Source: Cetobacterium sp. NK01
Lineage (GTDB): Bacteria > Fusobacteriota > Fusobacteriia > Fusobacteriales > Fusobacteriaceae
Assembly (NCBI RefSeq): GCF_024506395.1
Contig: NZ_JANIBO010000002.1
Coordinates: forward strand, 496,001-560,000
DNA: 64,000 nucleotides
Direction of reading: 5' to 3'
The notes beneath the pieces were generated by a model. That model searched no databases. It was not told the origin of the DNA and saw only the letters and a program-made list of their open reading frames with translations. Each line of letters starts with the position of its first letter. Positions within the stretch are counted from its first letter, which is position 1. Position numbers and translations under genes: made by a program. Shown here in pieces: positions 5,897 through 14,232 of this stretch.

Positions 5897-7447
5897 ATGT
5901 CGAGTATAGCACAAAGAGCTGAATTACAATCACAGATTTGGAAAATAGCCAATGATGTCCGTGGTTCAATAGATGGATGGGATTTTAAGCAATACGTTTT
6001 AGGAACGTTATTTTATAGATTTATTAGTGAGAACTTCTCTAACTACATTGAGGCTGGAGATGATAGCTTTAAATATGCAGATTTAAGTGATGATGTTATC
6101 ACAGAGGATATTAAAGAGGATGCAATAAAAACAAAGGGATATTTTATTTATCCAAGCCAGCTGTTCATTAACATTGCTAAGAATGCAAACACTAATGAAA
6201 GCTTAAATACAGATTTAGCAGCAATTTTTTCAGCTATTGAAAGTTCTGCAAACGGTTATCCTTCTGAATCTGATATAAAAGGATTATTTGCTGATTTTGA
6301 TACTACAAGCAATAGATTAGGAAATACAGTTAAAGACAAAAATAGTCGTTTAGCTGCTGTTATTAAAGGTGTTGAAGGTCTTAACTTTGGAGAGTTTGAA
6401 GACAATCATATAGATCTATTTGGTGACGCATATGAGTTTTTAATCTCTAACTATGCTGCTAATGCAGGTAAATCTGGTGGAGAGTTCTTTACACCTCAAA
6501 GTGTATCAAAGCTTATTGCAAAATTAGCAACACATAATCAAGAAACAATTAATAAAATTTATGACCCTGCTGCTGGATCAGGTTCATTACTACTACAAGC
6601 TAAGAAGCAATTTGATGACCATATTATTGAAGATGGTTTCTATGGACAAGAGATTAATCACACAACATATAACCTTGCTCGTATGAATATGTTTTTACAT
6701 AATGTAAACTACGATAAGTTTGATATAGCATTAGGAAATACTCTTTTAGATCCACATTTTGGAGATGAAAAACCATTTGATGCTATTGTATCAAATCCAC
6801 CATATTCAGTTAATTGGATTGGTAGTGATGATCCAACTCTTATCAATGATGAACGTTTTGCTCCTGCTGGAGTGTTAGCACCAAAATCTAAAGCAGACTT
6901 TGCTTTTGTACTTCACTGTTTAAATTATCTTTCTAGTAAAGGTCGTGCTGCTATAGTTTGTTTCCCTGGAATATTCTATCGTGGTGGAGCAGAGCAGAAA
7001 ATTAGAAAGTATCTAATTGAGAATAACTTTGTTGAAACAGTTATATCGTTAGCACCTAACCTTTTCTTTGGTACTTCAATAGCTGTTAATATACTAATTC
7101 TTTCTAAACATAAAGCTGATTCTAAAACTCAATTTATAGATGCTAGTGGAGAGGACTTCTTCAAGAAAGAAACGAATAATAACATTTTAACAGAGGAGCA
7201 CATTGAAGAAATTTTAAGAATATTTGACACTAAAGAGGATATTGATCATGTTTCAAAATCTGTTGATAATTCTAAAATAGCTGAAGAGAATTATAATCTT
7301 TCTGTAAATACTTATGTAGAAGCTAAAGATACAAGAGAGGTTATAGATATAAAAGAACTAAACACTAAAATAAAAGCAACAGTAAGCAATATAGATAGAC
7401 TTCGTATTGAAATAGATAAGATAATTGCAGAGATTGAGGTGGAGTAA
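5897..7447 (+). CDS. hsdM: Type I restriction-modification methyltransferase subunit
   Basis: A 516-residue N6-adenine methylase subunit. It pairs with HsdS to methylate the recognition site and with HsdR for cleavage. An N-terminal helical domain ([19 protein letters not shown]) leads to [16 protein letters not shown], the S-adenosylmethionine motif [13 protein letters not shown] at about 223-235, and the catalytic NPPY at about 301-304. The C-terminal helices would contact HsdS. Length is normal for the family. The ATG has a CGGAGGAAG site. It is the first gene of a five-gene operon and ends 2 bases before fic. It uses CGT arginine codons often, unlike the core genes in this window, which suggests acquisition from elsewhere. 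Confidence 0.95.
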
Positions 7448-7449
7448 GA

Positions 7450-8055
7450 ATGACTTTAGAAAATAAACTGAATATTACTAGCCAGATAGAGCTTTCAAAA
7501 GTAGAAGAGAAAATTAGTAAACAAAAAGCTAAGCAACTCTTTGACTCTGGAGATATTAATAAAGTTCAGATAGGAACGTTTGAAGGGCTTCAATACATTC
7601 ACAAATATCTATTTGAAGATATATATGATTTTGCTGGGAAAATAAGAAAGGTTAATATAGCTAAAAACAACTTTCGTTTTGCACCACTAATGTATCTTGA
7701 ACACTCGTTAAAATATATAGATACTATGCCACAAACAACATTTGAAGAAATTATTGAGAAATATGTGGAGATGAATATTGCTCATCCTTTCCGTGAAGGG
7801 AATGGAAGAGCAACTCGTATATGGCTTGATTTAATATTAAAAGAAAATATTAAACAAATAATTGATTGGAATTTAGTTGATAAAGATGAGTATCTATCAG
7901 CTATGGAGAGAAGTGTTATTAAAGATATTGAGATTAAACATTTTTTAAAACAAGCTCTTACAACTGAAATCAATGACCGTAACCTATTCATGAAGGGTAT
8001 AGATGTTAGTTACTACTATGAAGGTTACAGCGAATATAGCACAGAGGAGGTCTAA
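7450..8055 (+). CDS. fic: Fic protein embedded in the hsd operon
   Basis: A 201-residue Fic protein with a complete active motif HPFREGNGRATR (H112 to R123) and the usual upstream helix (IHKYLFEDIYDFAGKIRKVNI). The C-terminal tail holds S187-Y-Y-Y-E191-G192, matching the inhibitory [S/T]xxxE[G/N] helix of single-domain (class III) Fic enzymes, whose Glu blocks productive ATP binding. It should therefore be an AMP-transferring enzyme held off by its own tail. It begins 2 bases after hsdM with AGGTGGAG as ribosome site and ends just before hsdS. Its target may be part of the restriction complex or the host. Fic genes within hsd operons are known, but their role is not settled. Confidence 0.9.
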   Translation: MTLENKLNITSQIELSKVEEKISKQKAKQLFDSGDINKVQIGTFEGLQYIHKYLFEDIYDFAGKIRKVNIAKNNFRFAPLMYLEHSLKYIDTMPQTTFEEIIEKYVEMNIAHPFREGNGRATRIWLDLILKENIKQIIDWNLVDKDEYLSAMERSVIKDIEIKHFLKQALTTEINDRNLFMKGIDVSYYYEGYSEYSTEEV

Positions 8056-8056
8056 G

Positions 8057-9241
8057 ATGAGTAAGTTACAGCAATTAATAGATGAACTATGTCCTGATGG
8101 AGTAGAGTACAGCTATTTAGAAGAAATATTAGATTATGAACAACCGACAAAATATATAGTTAAAGATACAAATTATAATGATAGTTTTAAAATACCTGTT
8201 TTAACAGCTGGACAATCATTTATCTTAGGATACACAGATGAAGAATCAGGTATTTATGAAGCTACTAAAGAAAATCCAACTATAATCTTTGATGATTTTA
8301 CAACATCTTTTCATTGGGTAGATTTTAATTTTAAAATTAAATCATCTGCTATGAAAATGTTGAGAATAAATTTAAATGAAATTAAAAATATATCTTTTAG
8401 GTATGTTTATCATTGTATGAAAAATATAACATATAATCCTGTTGATCATTCGAGACAGTGGATTGGAAAATATTCCAAATTCCAAATCCCCCTACCACCA
8501 TTACCAGTACAAGAGGAGATTGTGCGTATTTTAGATACATTTACAGAGCTTACAACAGAGCTTACAACAGAGCTTACAACAGAGCTTACAATGAGAAAAC
8601 AGCAGTATGAATATTATAGAGATAGTTTATTAAATAAAAATAAACAACAAAATAATGTAGTGCTTAAAAGTATAGTTAAAAAAGGATGTTCAGGAGGAAC
8701 TCCTAAAAAAGGAGAAGAAAAATTTTATTTAAATGGAACAGTTCCTTGGTTAAGGACACAGGATGTTAAATTTAATGAAATTTTTAAAATTGATAGTTTT
8801 ATAACTGAAGAGGCAGTAAAAAAAACGTCTGCAAAATGGATTCCAGCAAACTGTGTAATTGTTGCTATTTCAGGTGCTACAGCAGGTAGATGTGCAATAA
8901 ACAAAATTCCAACAACAACAAATCAGCACTGCTATAATATGGAAATAGATGAAACTAAAGCTCTTTATAAATATATATATTATTGTGTTTGTAGTCAATA
9001 TGAAGAACTACTTTCGAGAAAACAAGGTGCAAGAGGCGATCTAAATTCATCTTTAATACTAGGAATATCTATTCCTTTACCTTCTCTTAAAGAACAACAA
9101 CGTATCGTTGATATACTTGATCGTTTTGATACTCTTGTGAATGATATTAAAACTGGATTACCAGCAGAGATAGAAGCAAGAAAACAGCAATATGAATACT
9201 ATAGAGACAAACTACTTACATTTAAAAAGTTGGAGAAATAG
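8057..9241 (+). CDS. hsdS: Type I restriction specificity subunit
   Basis: A 394-residue DNA-recognition subunit with two variable target-recognition halves (about 20-150 and 215-335). Each is followed by a conserved helix region: IPLPPLPVQEEIVRILDTF and ISIPLPSLKEQQRIVDILDRF, each then leading to RKQQYEYYRD. The first conserved region contains four exact 12-bp repeats (8543-8590) coding four TELT units, in the same position as the TAEL repeats of EcoR124-type HsdS. The frame extends upstream to 8003, but GGAGG at 8046-8050 and MSKLQQLIDELCPDGV mark the ATG at 8057 as the start. It follows fic by one base. Confidence 0.93.
   Translation: MSKLQQLIDELCPDGVEYSYLEEILDYEQPTKYIVKDTNYNDSFKIPVLTAGQSFILGYTDEESGIYEATKENPTIIFDDFTTSFHWVDFNFKIKSSAMKMLRINLNEIKNISFRYVYHCMKNITYNPVDHSRQWIGKYSKFQIPLPPLPVQEEIVRILDTFTELTTELTTELTTELTMRKQQYEYYRDSLLNKNKQQNNVVLKSIVKKGCSGGTPKKGEEKFYLNGTVPWLRTQDVKFNEIFKIDSFITEEAVKKTSAKWIPANCVIVAISGATAGRCAINKIPTTTNQHCYNMEIDETKALYKYIYYCVCSQYEELLSRKQGARGDLNSSLILGISIPLPSLKEQQRIVDILDRFDTLVNDIKTGLPAEIEARKQQYEYYRDKLLTFKKLEK
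8543..8590 (+). repeat. Four 12-bp tandem repeats in hsdS
   Basis: The unit ACAGAGCTTACA occurs four times in perfect tandem (8543, 8555, 8567, 8579) and codes TELT-TELT-TELT-TELT. Because 12 bp is four codons, gain or loss of a unit keeps the frame and changes only the length of the linker between the two recognition halves. Confidence 0.95.
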
Positions 9242-9242
9242 T

Positions 9243-10277
9243 ATGGAAAATGAAAAAATAAATGAATTGGAATTAGTAGAAAATCTATATGTTAGAGTAA
9301 AAAATATTTTAGAAAATGGTCGTGCTAAAGCATTTAAAGTTGTAAATACTGTTATGATAGAAAGTTATTGGAATATTGGTAAAGAGATTATTGAGGAAGA
9401 GCAAAGAGGGGAAAACCGAGCTGAATATGGGAAATATGTAATCCAATCTATCTCTGAAAAACTAACAAAAGAGTTTGGAAAAGGTTATTCAAAACAAAAT
9501 CTATGGTATATGAAACAATTTTATCTAACTTTTCCAATTCTCCACTCAGTGCGTGGAGAATTGAGTTGGACACACTATAGACTTTTGATGAAATTAAAAA
9601 ATAATGATATTCGTAATTTCTATATGATTGAAACAATCGAAAATAATTGGTCATCAAGAGAATTAGATAGACAGATAAGCTCTCTGCTATACGAAAGAAT
9701 TAAGATGAGTAAAGATCCTGTTACAGTAAAAGAACTTTCAGTAGTTGGACAAAAAGTAGAAACAGCTCACGATATTATAAAAAGTCCTATGGTTTTTGAA
9801 TTTTTAGGAAAAGGAGATTACACAATATCTGTAGAAAGTGATTTAGAATCTGCTCTTATGGATAAGCTTCAGCTTTTTCTTCTTGAGTTAGGAAAGGGAT
9901 TTTCTTTTGTTGGTAGACAAAAAAGAATTAATATAGATGGCGATAACTATTATATTGACTTAGTTTTCTATAACTATATTTTAAAATGTTTTGTTTTGAT
10001 TGACTTGAAAATGGGAAAATTAACTCATAGAGATATAGGACAAATGGATTTTTACGTACGTTATTATGAAAAAGAGATACGTTTAGATGGGGATAATCCA
10101 ACTATAGGATTGCTTCTTTGTTCAGATAAAAATGATTCAATGGTTAAATATACATTACTAGATGATAGTAAAAATATATTTGCATCTAAATATCAATTTT
10201 ACTTCCCAACAGAAGATGAATTGATAGAAGAGTTGGAAAGAGAAAAGTTAAGTTTAGAATTAGAATATAACGACTAA
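9243..10277 (+). CDS. DUF1016/YhcG-type PD-(D/E)xK nuclease-like protein
   Basis: A 344-residue protein of the DUF1016 (YhcG) family. The N-terminal helical domain covers about 15-165 ([62 protein letters not shown]). The C-terminal domain is PD-(D/E)xK-like: YYIDLVFYN, then [26 protein letters not shown], where D and IDLK supply the likely metal-binding residues. The open frame begins at 9192, but the ATG at 9243, one base past the hsdS stop, matches the family start. It sits between hsdS and hsdR in the operon, so it may add a second nuclease or a regulatory function. The precise role of the family is unclear. Confidence 0.85.
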
Positions 10278-10293
10278 AACAAAGGGGAATTTT

Positions 10294-13200
10294 ATGGCTG
10301 AATATAAACCAATTACAGAAACCAATAACTTTATAGTTTTAGATAAATACAATAAAATAGCTCAACAAGGTGTAAGTTATCAAACAGAAGCTCAATTAGA
10401 AGCTGAACTTATAAGAGACTTACAAAATCAAGGTTATGAATACTTACCTAAGCTTATCAATACAAAAGAGATGTTAAAAAATATTAGAATACAACTAGAA
10501 AATCTTAATGAAGTTAAATTTCTAGATTCTGAGTGGAAAAGATTTTGTGAGGAATATTTAGATAAACCAAGTGATAACTATATAGATAAAACTCGTAAAA
10601 TTCATGATGATTATATTTATGATTTTACCTTTGATGATGGTCATCTCAAAAATATTTATCTTCTTGATAAGAAAAATATGAGTAGAAATAAGTTGCAGGT
10701 TATTTCACAGTTCCAACAAAAGGGAACTAGCAGTAATCGTTATGATGTAACAATTCTAGTTAATGGATTGCCTTTAATTCAAGTAGAACTAAAGAAACGT
10801 GGAATTGCTATTCGTGAAGCATTTAACCAAGTTAATAGATACACTAAAGAGAGCTTTAATGCTGATAACTCTTTATTTAAATATCTTCAGATTTGTGTAA
10901 TTTCAAATGGTACAGATACAAGATACTTTGCTAACACTACTAAAAGAGATAAAAATAGTTTTGACTTTACTATGAACTGGGCAAAATCTGATAACACTCT
11001 TATTAGAGATTTAAAAGATTTTACTGCAACATTTTTTCAAAAGAATACACTATTAGATATACTGTTACACTACTCTGTTTTTGATTCTAATAACATACTG
11101 TTAATTATGAGACCGTATCAAATAGCTGCAACAGAAAGAATCTTATGGAAGATAAAAAGTTCGTATTTAGCTAAAAAATGGAAGACTCTTGAAAGTGGCG
11201 GGTATATCTGGCATACCACAGGATCAGGAAAAACTTTAACAAGTTTTAAAGCAGCTCGTTTAGCTACAGAGTTAGATTTTATAGATAAAGTATTCTTTGT
11301 TGTAGATAGAAAAGATTTAGATTATCAGACAATGAAAGAGTATCAACGTTTTTCACCAGATAGTGTCAATGGATCTGAAAATACTGCTGGACTTAAAAGA
11401 AACGTTGAGAAAGATGATAATAAAATCATTGTAACTACTATTCAAAAGTTAAATAATCTAATTAAAACTGAAGCAGACTTACCAATATATGACAAGCAAG
11501 TTGTCTTTATTTTTGATGAAGCTCATCGTTCACAATTTGGTGAAGCTCAAAAAAATATTGCTAAGAAATTTAAGAAGTACTATCAATTTGGATTTACTGG
11601 AACACCAATATTTCCAGAAAATGCTTTAGGTTCTGAAACTACTGCAAGTGTATTTGGTACAGAGTTACACTCATATGTTATAACTGATGCAATTAGAGAT
11701 GAGAAGGTTCTTAAATTTAAAGTTGATTATAATGATGTACGTCCTAAGTTTAAATCTCTTGAGAAGGAGCAGGATGAGGATAAACTAACTTCTGAAGAAG
11801 CAAAGGTAGCTTTTTTACATCCAGAAAGAATCAAGGAAATATCTCAATATATTTTGAATAACTTTAAAATAAAAACCCATCGAACATATAATGGTGAAAA
11901 AGGATTTAATGCAATGTTTACTGTAAGTAGCGTTGAGGCAGCAAAACTTTATTATGAAACATTAACAAATTTACAAAAGAACAGAGAGAAACCTTTAAAG
12001 ATAGCAACTATCTTTTCTTTTGCAGCTAATGAGGAACAAAACTCCAAAGGAGATATAGGTGATGAAACTTTTGAGCCTTCAGCAATGAATCAAAGTGCAA
12101 AGGAGTTTTTAATCTCTGCTATTAATGACTATAATACAATGTTTAAAACAAACTTTGGAATTGATAGTAAAGAGTTCCAAAACTATTATCGTGATCTTGC
12201 TAATAGAGTAAGAAAGCAAGAGATTGATTTATTAATTGTAGTTGGGATGTTTTTAACTGGATTTGATGCTCCAACATTAAATACCTTGTTTGTTGATAAG
12301 AACTTACGTTATCATGGATTAATACAAGCATTCTCAAGAACAAACCGTATCTACGATTCTACAAAGACTTTTGGAAATATAGTTACTTTTAGAGATTTAG
12401 AAGCAGCAACAATAGATGCTATAACTCTATTTGGTGATAAGAATACAAAGAATGTAGTTCTTGAAAAAAGTTATAAAGAATACATGGAAGGGTTCACTGA
12501 TATTAGTACAGGTGCAGCTCGTCGTGGATACATAGAAGTAGTTAGAGAGTTGAATTCTCGTTTCCCTAATGTTGATGATATCGTCACTGAAAGAGATAAA
12601 AAGGATTTTGCTAAACTATTTGGTGAATATTTAAGAGTTGAAAACATATTGCAGAATTATGATGAGTTTACAAGATTAAAAGCTTTACAATCTCTTGATA
12701 TGGACGATTCTAAAATGGTTGAAGAGTTCAAAAGTATGTATTATGTAACTGATGAAGATATAGAGAACATGAAAAAAATTGAAATGCCTAAAGAAAGAGT
12801 AGTTCAAGATTATCGTTCTACATATAATGATATTCGTGAGTGGCTTCGTCGTGAGAAGAAGGGGACAGTTGGAGAAGATTCTACACTCCAATGGGATGAT
12901 ATCGTTTTTGAAGTAGATCTTTTGAAATCTCAAGAGATAAACTTAGACTATATTCTTGAATTAATTTTTGATAAACATAAAAAAGTAAAAAGTAAGGATG
13001 TATTGATTGGAGATGTACGTCGTTTAATTAGATCAAGTACAGGAAATCGTGCAAAAGAAAGTTTAATAGTGGACTTTATCAATAATACTGATCTAGATAA
13101 ATTTGATGATAAGGCTAGTATCATAGAAGCATTTTTTTCATTTGCTCAAATGGAACAAGTGAAAGAAGCTGAAGAGTTGATAAAAGAAGAAAAACTCAAT

Positions 13201-13392
13201 ACTGATGCAGCTAAAAGATATATACTGACATCACTAAAGAAAGAACAAGCTAGTGATAATGGAACTGAATTAAACGAAATCATTCCTAAGATGAGCCCTC
13301 TTAATCCTAACTACTTAACTAAAAAAAGCACTGTATTCCAGAAAATATCTGCCTTTGTGGAAAAGTTTAAAGGAATTGGTGACAGAATTTAA
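10294..13392 (+). CDS. hsdR: Type I restriction endonuclease / translocase subunit
   Basis: A 1032-residue motor and nuclease subunit. The N-terminal nuclease domain has the catalytic stretch [10 protein letters not shown] at about 160-170. The SF2 helicase core has Walker [12 protein letters not shown] at about 307-317, motif II DEAH at about 408-411, GFTGTPIF (motif III region) and [10 protein letters not shown] (motif VI). The helical C-terminus would bind HsdM/HsdS. It translocates DNA from unmethylated sites and cuts at a distance. The length is typical and no frame damage is seen. The ribosome site is AAAGGGG, 16 bases after the DUF1016 gene, and this is the last gene of the operon. CGT arginine codons are again common. 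Confidence 0.95.
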
Positions 13393-13448: not shown

Positions 13449-13586
13449 ATAACAAAATACAAAAAATAATAAGAACCTCTGGGGGGGATAGAGGTTCTTA
13501 TCTGGGGGGGATTAAATTATTTATTACTTTTAACACTTATTATAATATTTAGACTATAGGTTTTAGAAAAAAGTTTTAAAATTTAT
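13449..13586. repeat. Long direct repeat, copy 2 (right edge of the defence island)
   Basis: Near-identical partner of 1071-1207, in the same orientation. It contains the same 12-bp stem (arms 13469-13480 and 13490-13501) with a G7 loop instead of G6. This copy starts 57 bases after the hsdR stop and runs into the last codons of the leftward cat gene (stop at 13576). Both copies therefore lie at the tail of a leftward gene, where the hairpin followed by TATTATTTTTTG would terminate transcription. Confidence 0.9.
13453..13501 (-). terminator. Terminator hairpin inside repeat copy 2
   Basis: A perfect 12-bp stem, ATAAGAACCTCT / AGAGGTTCTTAT, with loop GGGGGGGAT and a U-rich run when read leftward. 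It sits about 75 bases past the stop of the leftward cat gene. Confidence 0.6.
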
Positions 13587-14232
13587 TTTTTTCAATTAGA
13601 AAAGTAATGTCGTTATCAATAAGTTCTTGTAATTTCTCTATAAATCTACAGAGATGAAACCCATCGCATACAGCATGATGCACTTGAATAGAAAGAGGTA
13701 TTAAGTATTTATTATTTTCTAAAATAAATTTTCCAAAAGTAAATATTGGAAGATAATAATCATAGCCATTTTTTAAATTTAAATTGAATCCATCGAAAGT
13801 ATTCCAAGGAATCATAGAAATTGGAAAGGTATTTTCAGGAATATTTTCTTTTCCAAGCAGTTTTGTAGTTTTTGTATATTCAGACGTATCAAAAATATAG
13901 GAGTTATAAAATTCAGAGTAGGATTCTATATTATCACTCCAGATATTAGTAAATAATTCATTTTCTTTTTTTAAATAAGTGTAGCAAGGATATAAGGTTT
14001 TATAAACTCCTAAAACACCTTTATCATTTTTATTTATTCTAAATTCTTCAAATTGGTTAACGGCTTTAGTTAAAGAAAATATTAAAGCAGGATACACTTT
14101 TAAATTTAATTTCTTTATATTAGTTATATCTATTTTAGTTGTTAAACTCATTGTACAAGGGGTATTTTTTGAAAATTGTTCATAATATTCTCTTCTTTTC
14201 CATTTTTCAATATCAATCTCTTTAAAAAACAT
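13576..14232 (-). CDS. cat: Chloramphenicol O-acetyltransferase (CatA type)
   Basis: A 218-residue trimeric acetyl-CoA-dependent acetyltransferase. The catalytic signature QVHHAVCDGFHLCRFIEKLQ (His at about 185-186) and the substrate-pocket stretch PWNTFDGFNLNLKNGYDYYLPIFTFGKF are both present. The N-terminal PCTMSLTTKIDITNIK also matches the family. Length equals that of classical Cat enzymes. The ATG at 14232 has a GGAGAAT site. The gene stands alone, with its end inside repeat copy 2 next to the restriction island. It may confer chloramphenicol resistance or act on another substrate; many chromosomal copies are xenobiotic acetyltransferases of unknown natural role. Confidence 0.88.
   Translation of the reverse strand: MFFKEIDIEKWKRREYYEQFSKNTPCTMSLTTKIDITNIKKLNLKVYPALIFSLTKAVNQFEEFRINKNDKGVLGVYKTLYPCYTYLKKENELFTNIWSDNIESYSEFYNSYIFDTSEYTKTTKLLGKENIPENTFPISMIPWNTFDGFNLNLKNGYDYYLPIFTFGKFILENNKYLIPLSIQVHHAVCDGFHLCRFIEKLQELIDNDITFLIEKNKF

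Follow-up and report, generated by a model that had tools for sequence, protein, structure and literature searches.

The analysed stretch of Cetobacterium sp. NK01 DNA (64,000 nucleotides, hereafter the window) carries a type I restriction-modification operon in the order hsdM-fic-hsdS-DUF1016-hsdR, in which every frame is complete (Table 1). Pfam matches and the complete open frames indicated that hsdM, hsdS and hsdR are intact and grouped, with accessory genes between them. HsdS residues 12-393 could be aligned by phmmer to the EcoR124 HsdS (7bst_A), and the predicted HsdS model (mean pLDDT 89.4, pTM 0.67) retrieved EcoR124I (7bst) as its first PDB match in Foldseek. A preliminary description of this DNA had named the gene as an hsdS of EcoR124-type design, which this full-length homology bears out. 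We are highly confident that the locus encodes a restriction-modification system of EcoR124 type (type IC), intact and belonging to the class in which repeats set the target spacer. The assignment to type IC is by homology, whereas the class was classically delimited through genetic complementation or antigenic cross-reaction among its members.

Table 1. Features of the type I restriction-modification operon (positions are those of the window)
Feature	Position	Strand	Evidence and remarks
hsdM, type I N6-adenine methyltransferase subunit	5897..7447	+	Pfam N6_Mtase 3.6e-117, HsdM_N; orthologues 96-98% identical in three sister genomes
fic-domain gene between hsdM and hsdS	7450..8055	+	Pfam Fic 1.3e-13; equivalent position in G006 and G001
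hsdS, EcoR124-type specificity subunit, 394 aa	8057..9241	+	phmmer 7bst_A E 1.5e-97; Methylase_S 7.6e-37; Foldseek 7bst_A E 4.5e-28
N-terminal region containing target recognition domain 1 (TRD1)	8057..8527	+	51% identical to EcoR124I HsdS (169 columns)
12-bp array, four units of ACAGAGCTTACA	8543..8590	+	four TELT; in first linker helix (residues 149-193 of the predicted model)
Target recognition domain 2 (TRD2)	8645..9109	+	32% identity to EcoR124I TRD2; 47% to G006 TRD1
Second linker, ILDRFDTLVNDIKTGLPAEIEARKQQYEYYR	9113..9205	+	31 aa, like first linker, without tandem repeats
DUF1016/YhcG PDDEXK nuclease, hsdS-hsdR gap	9243..10277	+	YhcG_C 2.2e-55, DUF1016_N 5e-47
hsdR with EcoR124-type C-terminal domain	10294..13392	+	EcoR124_C 9.8e-67, HSDR_N, SWI2_SNF2

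Within the operon, the Fic-domain gene matched the PADLOC candidate family PDC-S04 and was conserved in two sister genomes. The content of the hsdS-hsdR gap varied: the DUF1016 nuclease gene lies there in the window, a pair of AAA-ATPase_like and PDDEXK_9 genes in the sister genome G006 (L095 4971-6623), and a gene for a Rep3_C-type protein in the sister genome G001 (L096 6494-7627). As the sister species share conserved hsdM, fic and hsdR genes but differ in these, the gap constitutes a slot for accessory genes inside the operon. A literature search on DUF1016 and Fic genes in type I operons returned nothing on point. Directly after the operon, a gene of the chloramphenicol acetyltransferase family (CAT, 2.4e-68) occupies positions 13576-14232 of the minus strand.

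The array in hsdS consists of four perfect 12-bp units, in frame with the gene, plus one further matching base. Tandem Repeats Finder reported it at 8543-8591 (period 12, 4.1 copies, 100% matches) with the top score, and it was the sole array in the window with more than 2.2 copies. It encodes HsdS residues 163-178 in the context ILDTF-TELT-TELT-TELT-TELT-MRKQQYEYYR. In the predicted model, these residues lie inside one continuous helix that runs between TRD1 and TRD2. The four perfect TELT-coding copies and their place in the linker between the two recognition halves of HsdS, both of which had been described from the letters of the sequence, were thus confirmed. Collapse of the array during assembly is unlikely at a length of 48 bp.

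The N-terminal part of HsdS is close enough to EcoR124I, a GAA reader, that the first half-site is likely GAA, as read by the related EcoR124I domain. For TRD2 there was no close enough relative of known specificity, EcoR124I being only distantly similar, and a half-site prediction was dropped. The likeness of TRD2 to TRD1 of the G006 HsdS (L095 8462-8911) represents an apparent movement of a domain between positions. A direct repeat common to both linkers of the window HsdS (8562-8622 and 9147-9207, 72%) could serve such domain movement. Structurally, the second linker of this family is paired with the helix of the first. We also considered an hsdS inversion system and rejected it: no second hsdS was found at the locus, the sole other match in the genome having 30% identity and lying on a separate contig, and no long inverted repeats were found within hsdS.

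The classic systems have two or three copies, and four had been held to exceed them; this claim did not survive a comparison of linker lengths. The repeat counts used for EcoR124 omit the first, degenerate unit. EcoR124I (L094, with a linker identical to that of 7bst), which is termed a form with two repeats (TAEL), has an ILD-to-YYR distance of 27 residues, as compared with 31 for the three-TAEL alleles of E. coli. The window linker likewise spans 31 residues from ILD to YYR and reads TEL-TTEL-TTEL-TTEL-T, so that, counted in the classic way, it comprises three repeats and a leading unit, which here matches the rest. Measured between these fixed anchors, it is equivalent in length to the linker of EcoR124II (three TAEL plus a leading TAL). 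As the counts mix two conventions, the contrast of four with two or three is a counting artefact, and the comparison shows how including or leaving out the first, degenerate unit alters a copy count.

The copy number was also ordinary among relatives. When 52 arrays (relatives and window) were compared, four units were found in 28, three in 22, two in one and five in one, with the counts shifting in four-residue steps. Four units are therefore the modal state, and the copy number of the window array is unexceptional. The hsdS of E. coli NT1F10 (L115 421-1656) has five TAEL and a linker of 39 residues; the adjoining hsdM is annotated as incomplete, and inactivity of the system may be what allows so long a linker to persist.

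Whole-unit differences were present between close relatives. The preliminary description had proposed counting the units in sister strains, and at the level of species this count distinguished the window from its neighbors: the sister genomes G006 and G001 (HsdM 98% and 96% identical, respectively) carry three units as against four in the window, the comparison being one between species, each pair with differing recognition domains and not isogenic, with the window species represented by one genome. The units of G006 are identical to those of the window, and the flanks differ at only 3 of 54 bases on the left and 1 of 28 on the right, indicating that the difference between four and three units is an exact 12-bp indel. 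Sister species with four and with three units offer a neat natural comparison. In G001, units 2 and 3 are of the TAEL type, GCAGAGCTTACA, whereas the window and G006 arrays repeat their first unit throughout, a uniformity that probably reflects homogenisation. The genome G022, from a different genus of the same family, has four internally identical units, ACAGAGCTGACA, with another leucine codon. Across the family, the same residue was encoded by the same codon in 94% of comparisons between units of one array and in 41% of comparisons between arrays. A still closer pair came from E. coli, where the hsdS genes of EC24 and 2017.15.01CC (L116 and L120) are identical at every base but for one 12-bp unit (three versus two TAEL); the longer form had exact matches in three genomes of the collection, one of them EC24, and the form shorter by 12 bp had whole-gene matches in five. 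As natural material, this pair is clean enough to test spacer switching directly. Taken together, these patterns are good evidence for turnover and fit repeated duplication and loss of the array units.

A reading without any duplication or slippage would be that the identical units merely reflect selection for the TELT peptide in a genome with biased codons. The genome is AT-rich and has few favoured codons, as this reading would have it, but the E and L codons of the TELT units are not the favoured ones (GAG 0.32, CTT 0.21). With codon usage taken from the 43 long ORFs of the window, the probability that four TELT units share all their codons by chance was ~3e-4, and that of this particular codon set ~1e-7. 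Since the shared codons are so improbable, the array exceeds what either chance or protein-level selection alone would give. Furthermore, unit codons differ between lineages and hardly within arrays, most arrays being without mixed synonymous codons. We therefore regard selection with biased codons as a very improbable source of the identical units.

How often the number of units changes at present is a separate matter, because a single past expansion would suffice to give units of identical codons, even if no switching occurs today. The array might be a fixed structural linker, in which four units are a preferred helix length kept under selection and no switching occurs on a relevant time scale; this concerns switching only and is compatible with a spacer-setting role. 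Its attraction lies in the modal count of four units (28 of 52 arrays), in the equal length of the array linker and the non-repetitive second linker (31 aa), and in a review according to which three TAEL are apparently the optimum (PMC3874165). It is less easily reconciled with three units in a nearly identical flank in sister genomes of the same genus, with perfect codon identity, which implies recent expansion or homogenisation, or with the change of unit number in otherwise identical E. coli genes. In M. pneumoniae, moreover, the number of TELS/AELS units in hsdS varies by strain and changes between passages (PMC4537597). We hold a fixed linker to be a real possibility, though somewhat short of an even chance. 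At the other extreme, the locus might be a true phasevarion, in which unit changes at a high rate produce mixed populations that differ in methylation and gene expression. The design of the array permits unit changes, but four units make a short array; the slippage rate falls with array length. The passage-dependent copy number in M. pneumoniae and the report of simple sequence repeats (SSRs) in 7.9% of hsdS genes (PMC7394358) speak for such a system, against which one E. coli study reports type I methylation without an effect on gene regulation (PMC8287963). On this evidence a phasevarion seems unlikely. The corresponding picture of an active switch, with populations holding three-, four- and five-unit hsdS alleles, distinct methylomes and differing phage resistance or gene expression, is likewise one that we doubt.

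The role that we favor for the array, that of setting the spacer, follows a known mechanism. In EcoR124, an increase from two to three TAEL shifts the spacer of the target from N6 to N7, the N7 spacer being that of EcoR124II (review, PMC3874165), and in NgoAV an increase from one to two LEAT likewise shifts it from N6 to N7, as determined by SMRT sequencing (PMC6789123). The expectation that whole-unit changes alter the spacer length in frame was judged right, this being the classic EcoR124 mechanism. In the window HsdS, the array codes for some four and a half turns of the first predicted linker helix, one of two that hold the DNA-recognition domains apart. The number of units would then set the length of the helix and the spacing of the domains, and through these the N-spacer between the two halves of the target. 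This allele would correspond to the longer, N7-class spacing, with the first half of the target probably GAA, and a one-unit change in either direction, through slippage or unequal crossing-over, would keep the frame and shift the spacer by 1 bp. For the window species, the spacer length, the target and the biologically relevant frequency of unit changes are what we infer.

The mechanism, the unit size, its position and the copy range are all already known, and with this locus a mechanism familiar since the 1980s gains one more lineage. The closest known systems are EcoR124I and EcoR124II (EcoR124/3), of type IC, which have in common with the window the full-length HsdS homology, the position of the array, the 12-bp unit and an EcoR124-type HsdR, EcoR124II also having a linker of equal length. 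They differ in the unit, which is TAEL in EcoR124 and TTEL (TELT) in the window, where the first unit is no longer degenerate, as well as in TRD2 and in the fic and DUF1016 genes inside the window operon. NgoAV of Neisseria gonorrhoeae likewise has tetrapeptide repeats (LEAT) whose number is linked to spacer length, but there a poly-G tract in addition truncates HsdS, and none was noted in the window hsdS. The hsdS genes of Mycoplasma pneumoniae likewise carry 12-bp in-frame repeats in the first helix, coding for TELS, a peptide almost identical to the window TELT (PMC4537597); copy numbers there reach 33 and the hsdS genes are numerous, whereas the window has one gene with four copies.
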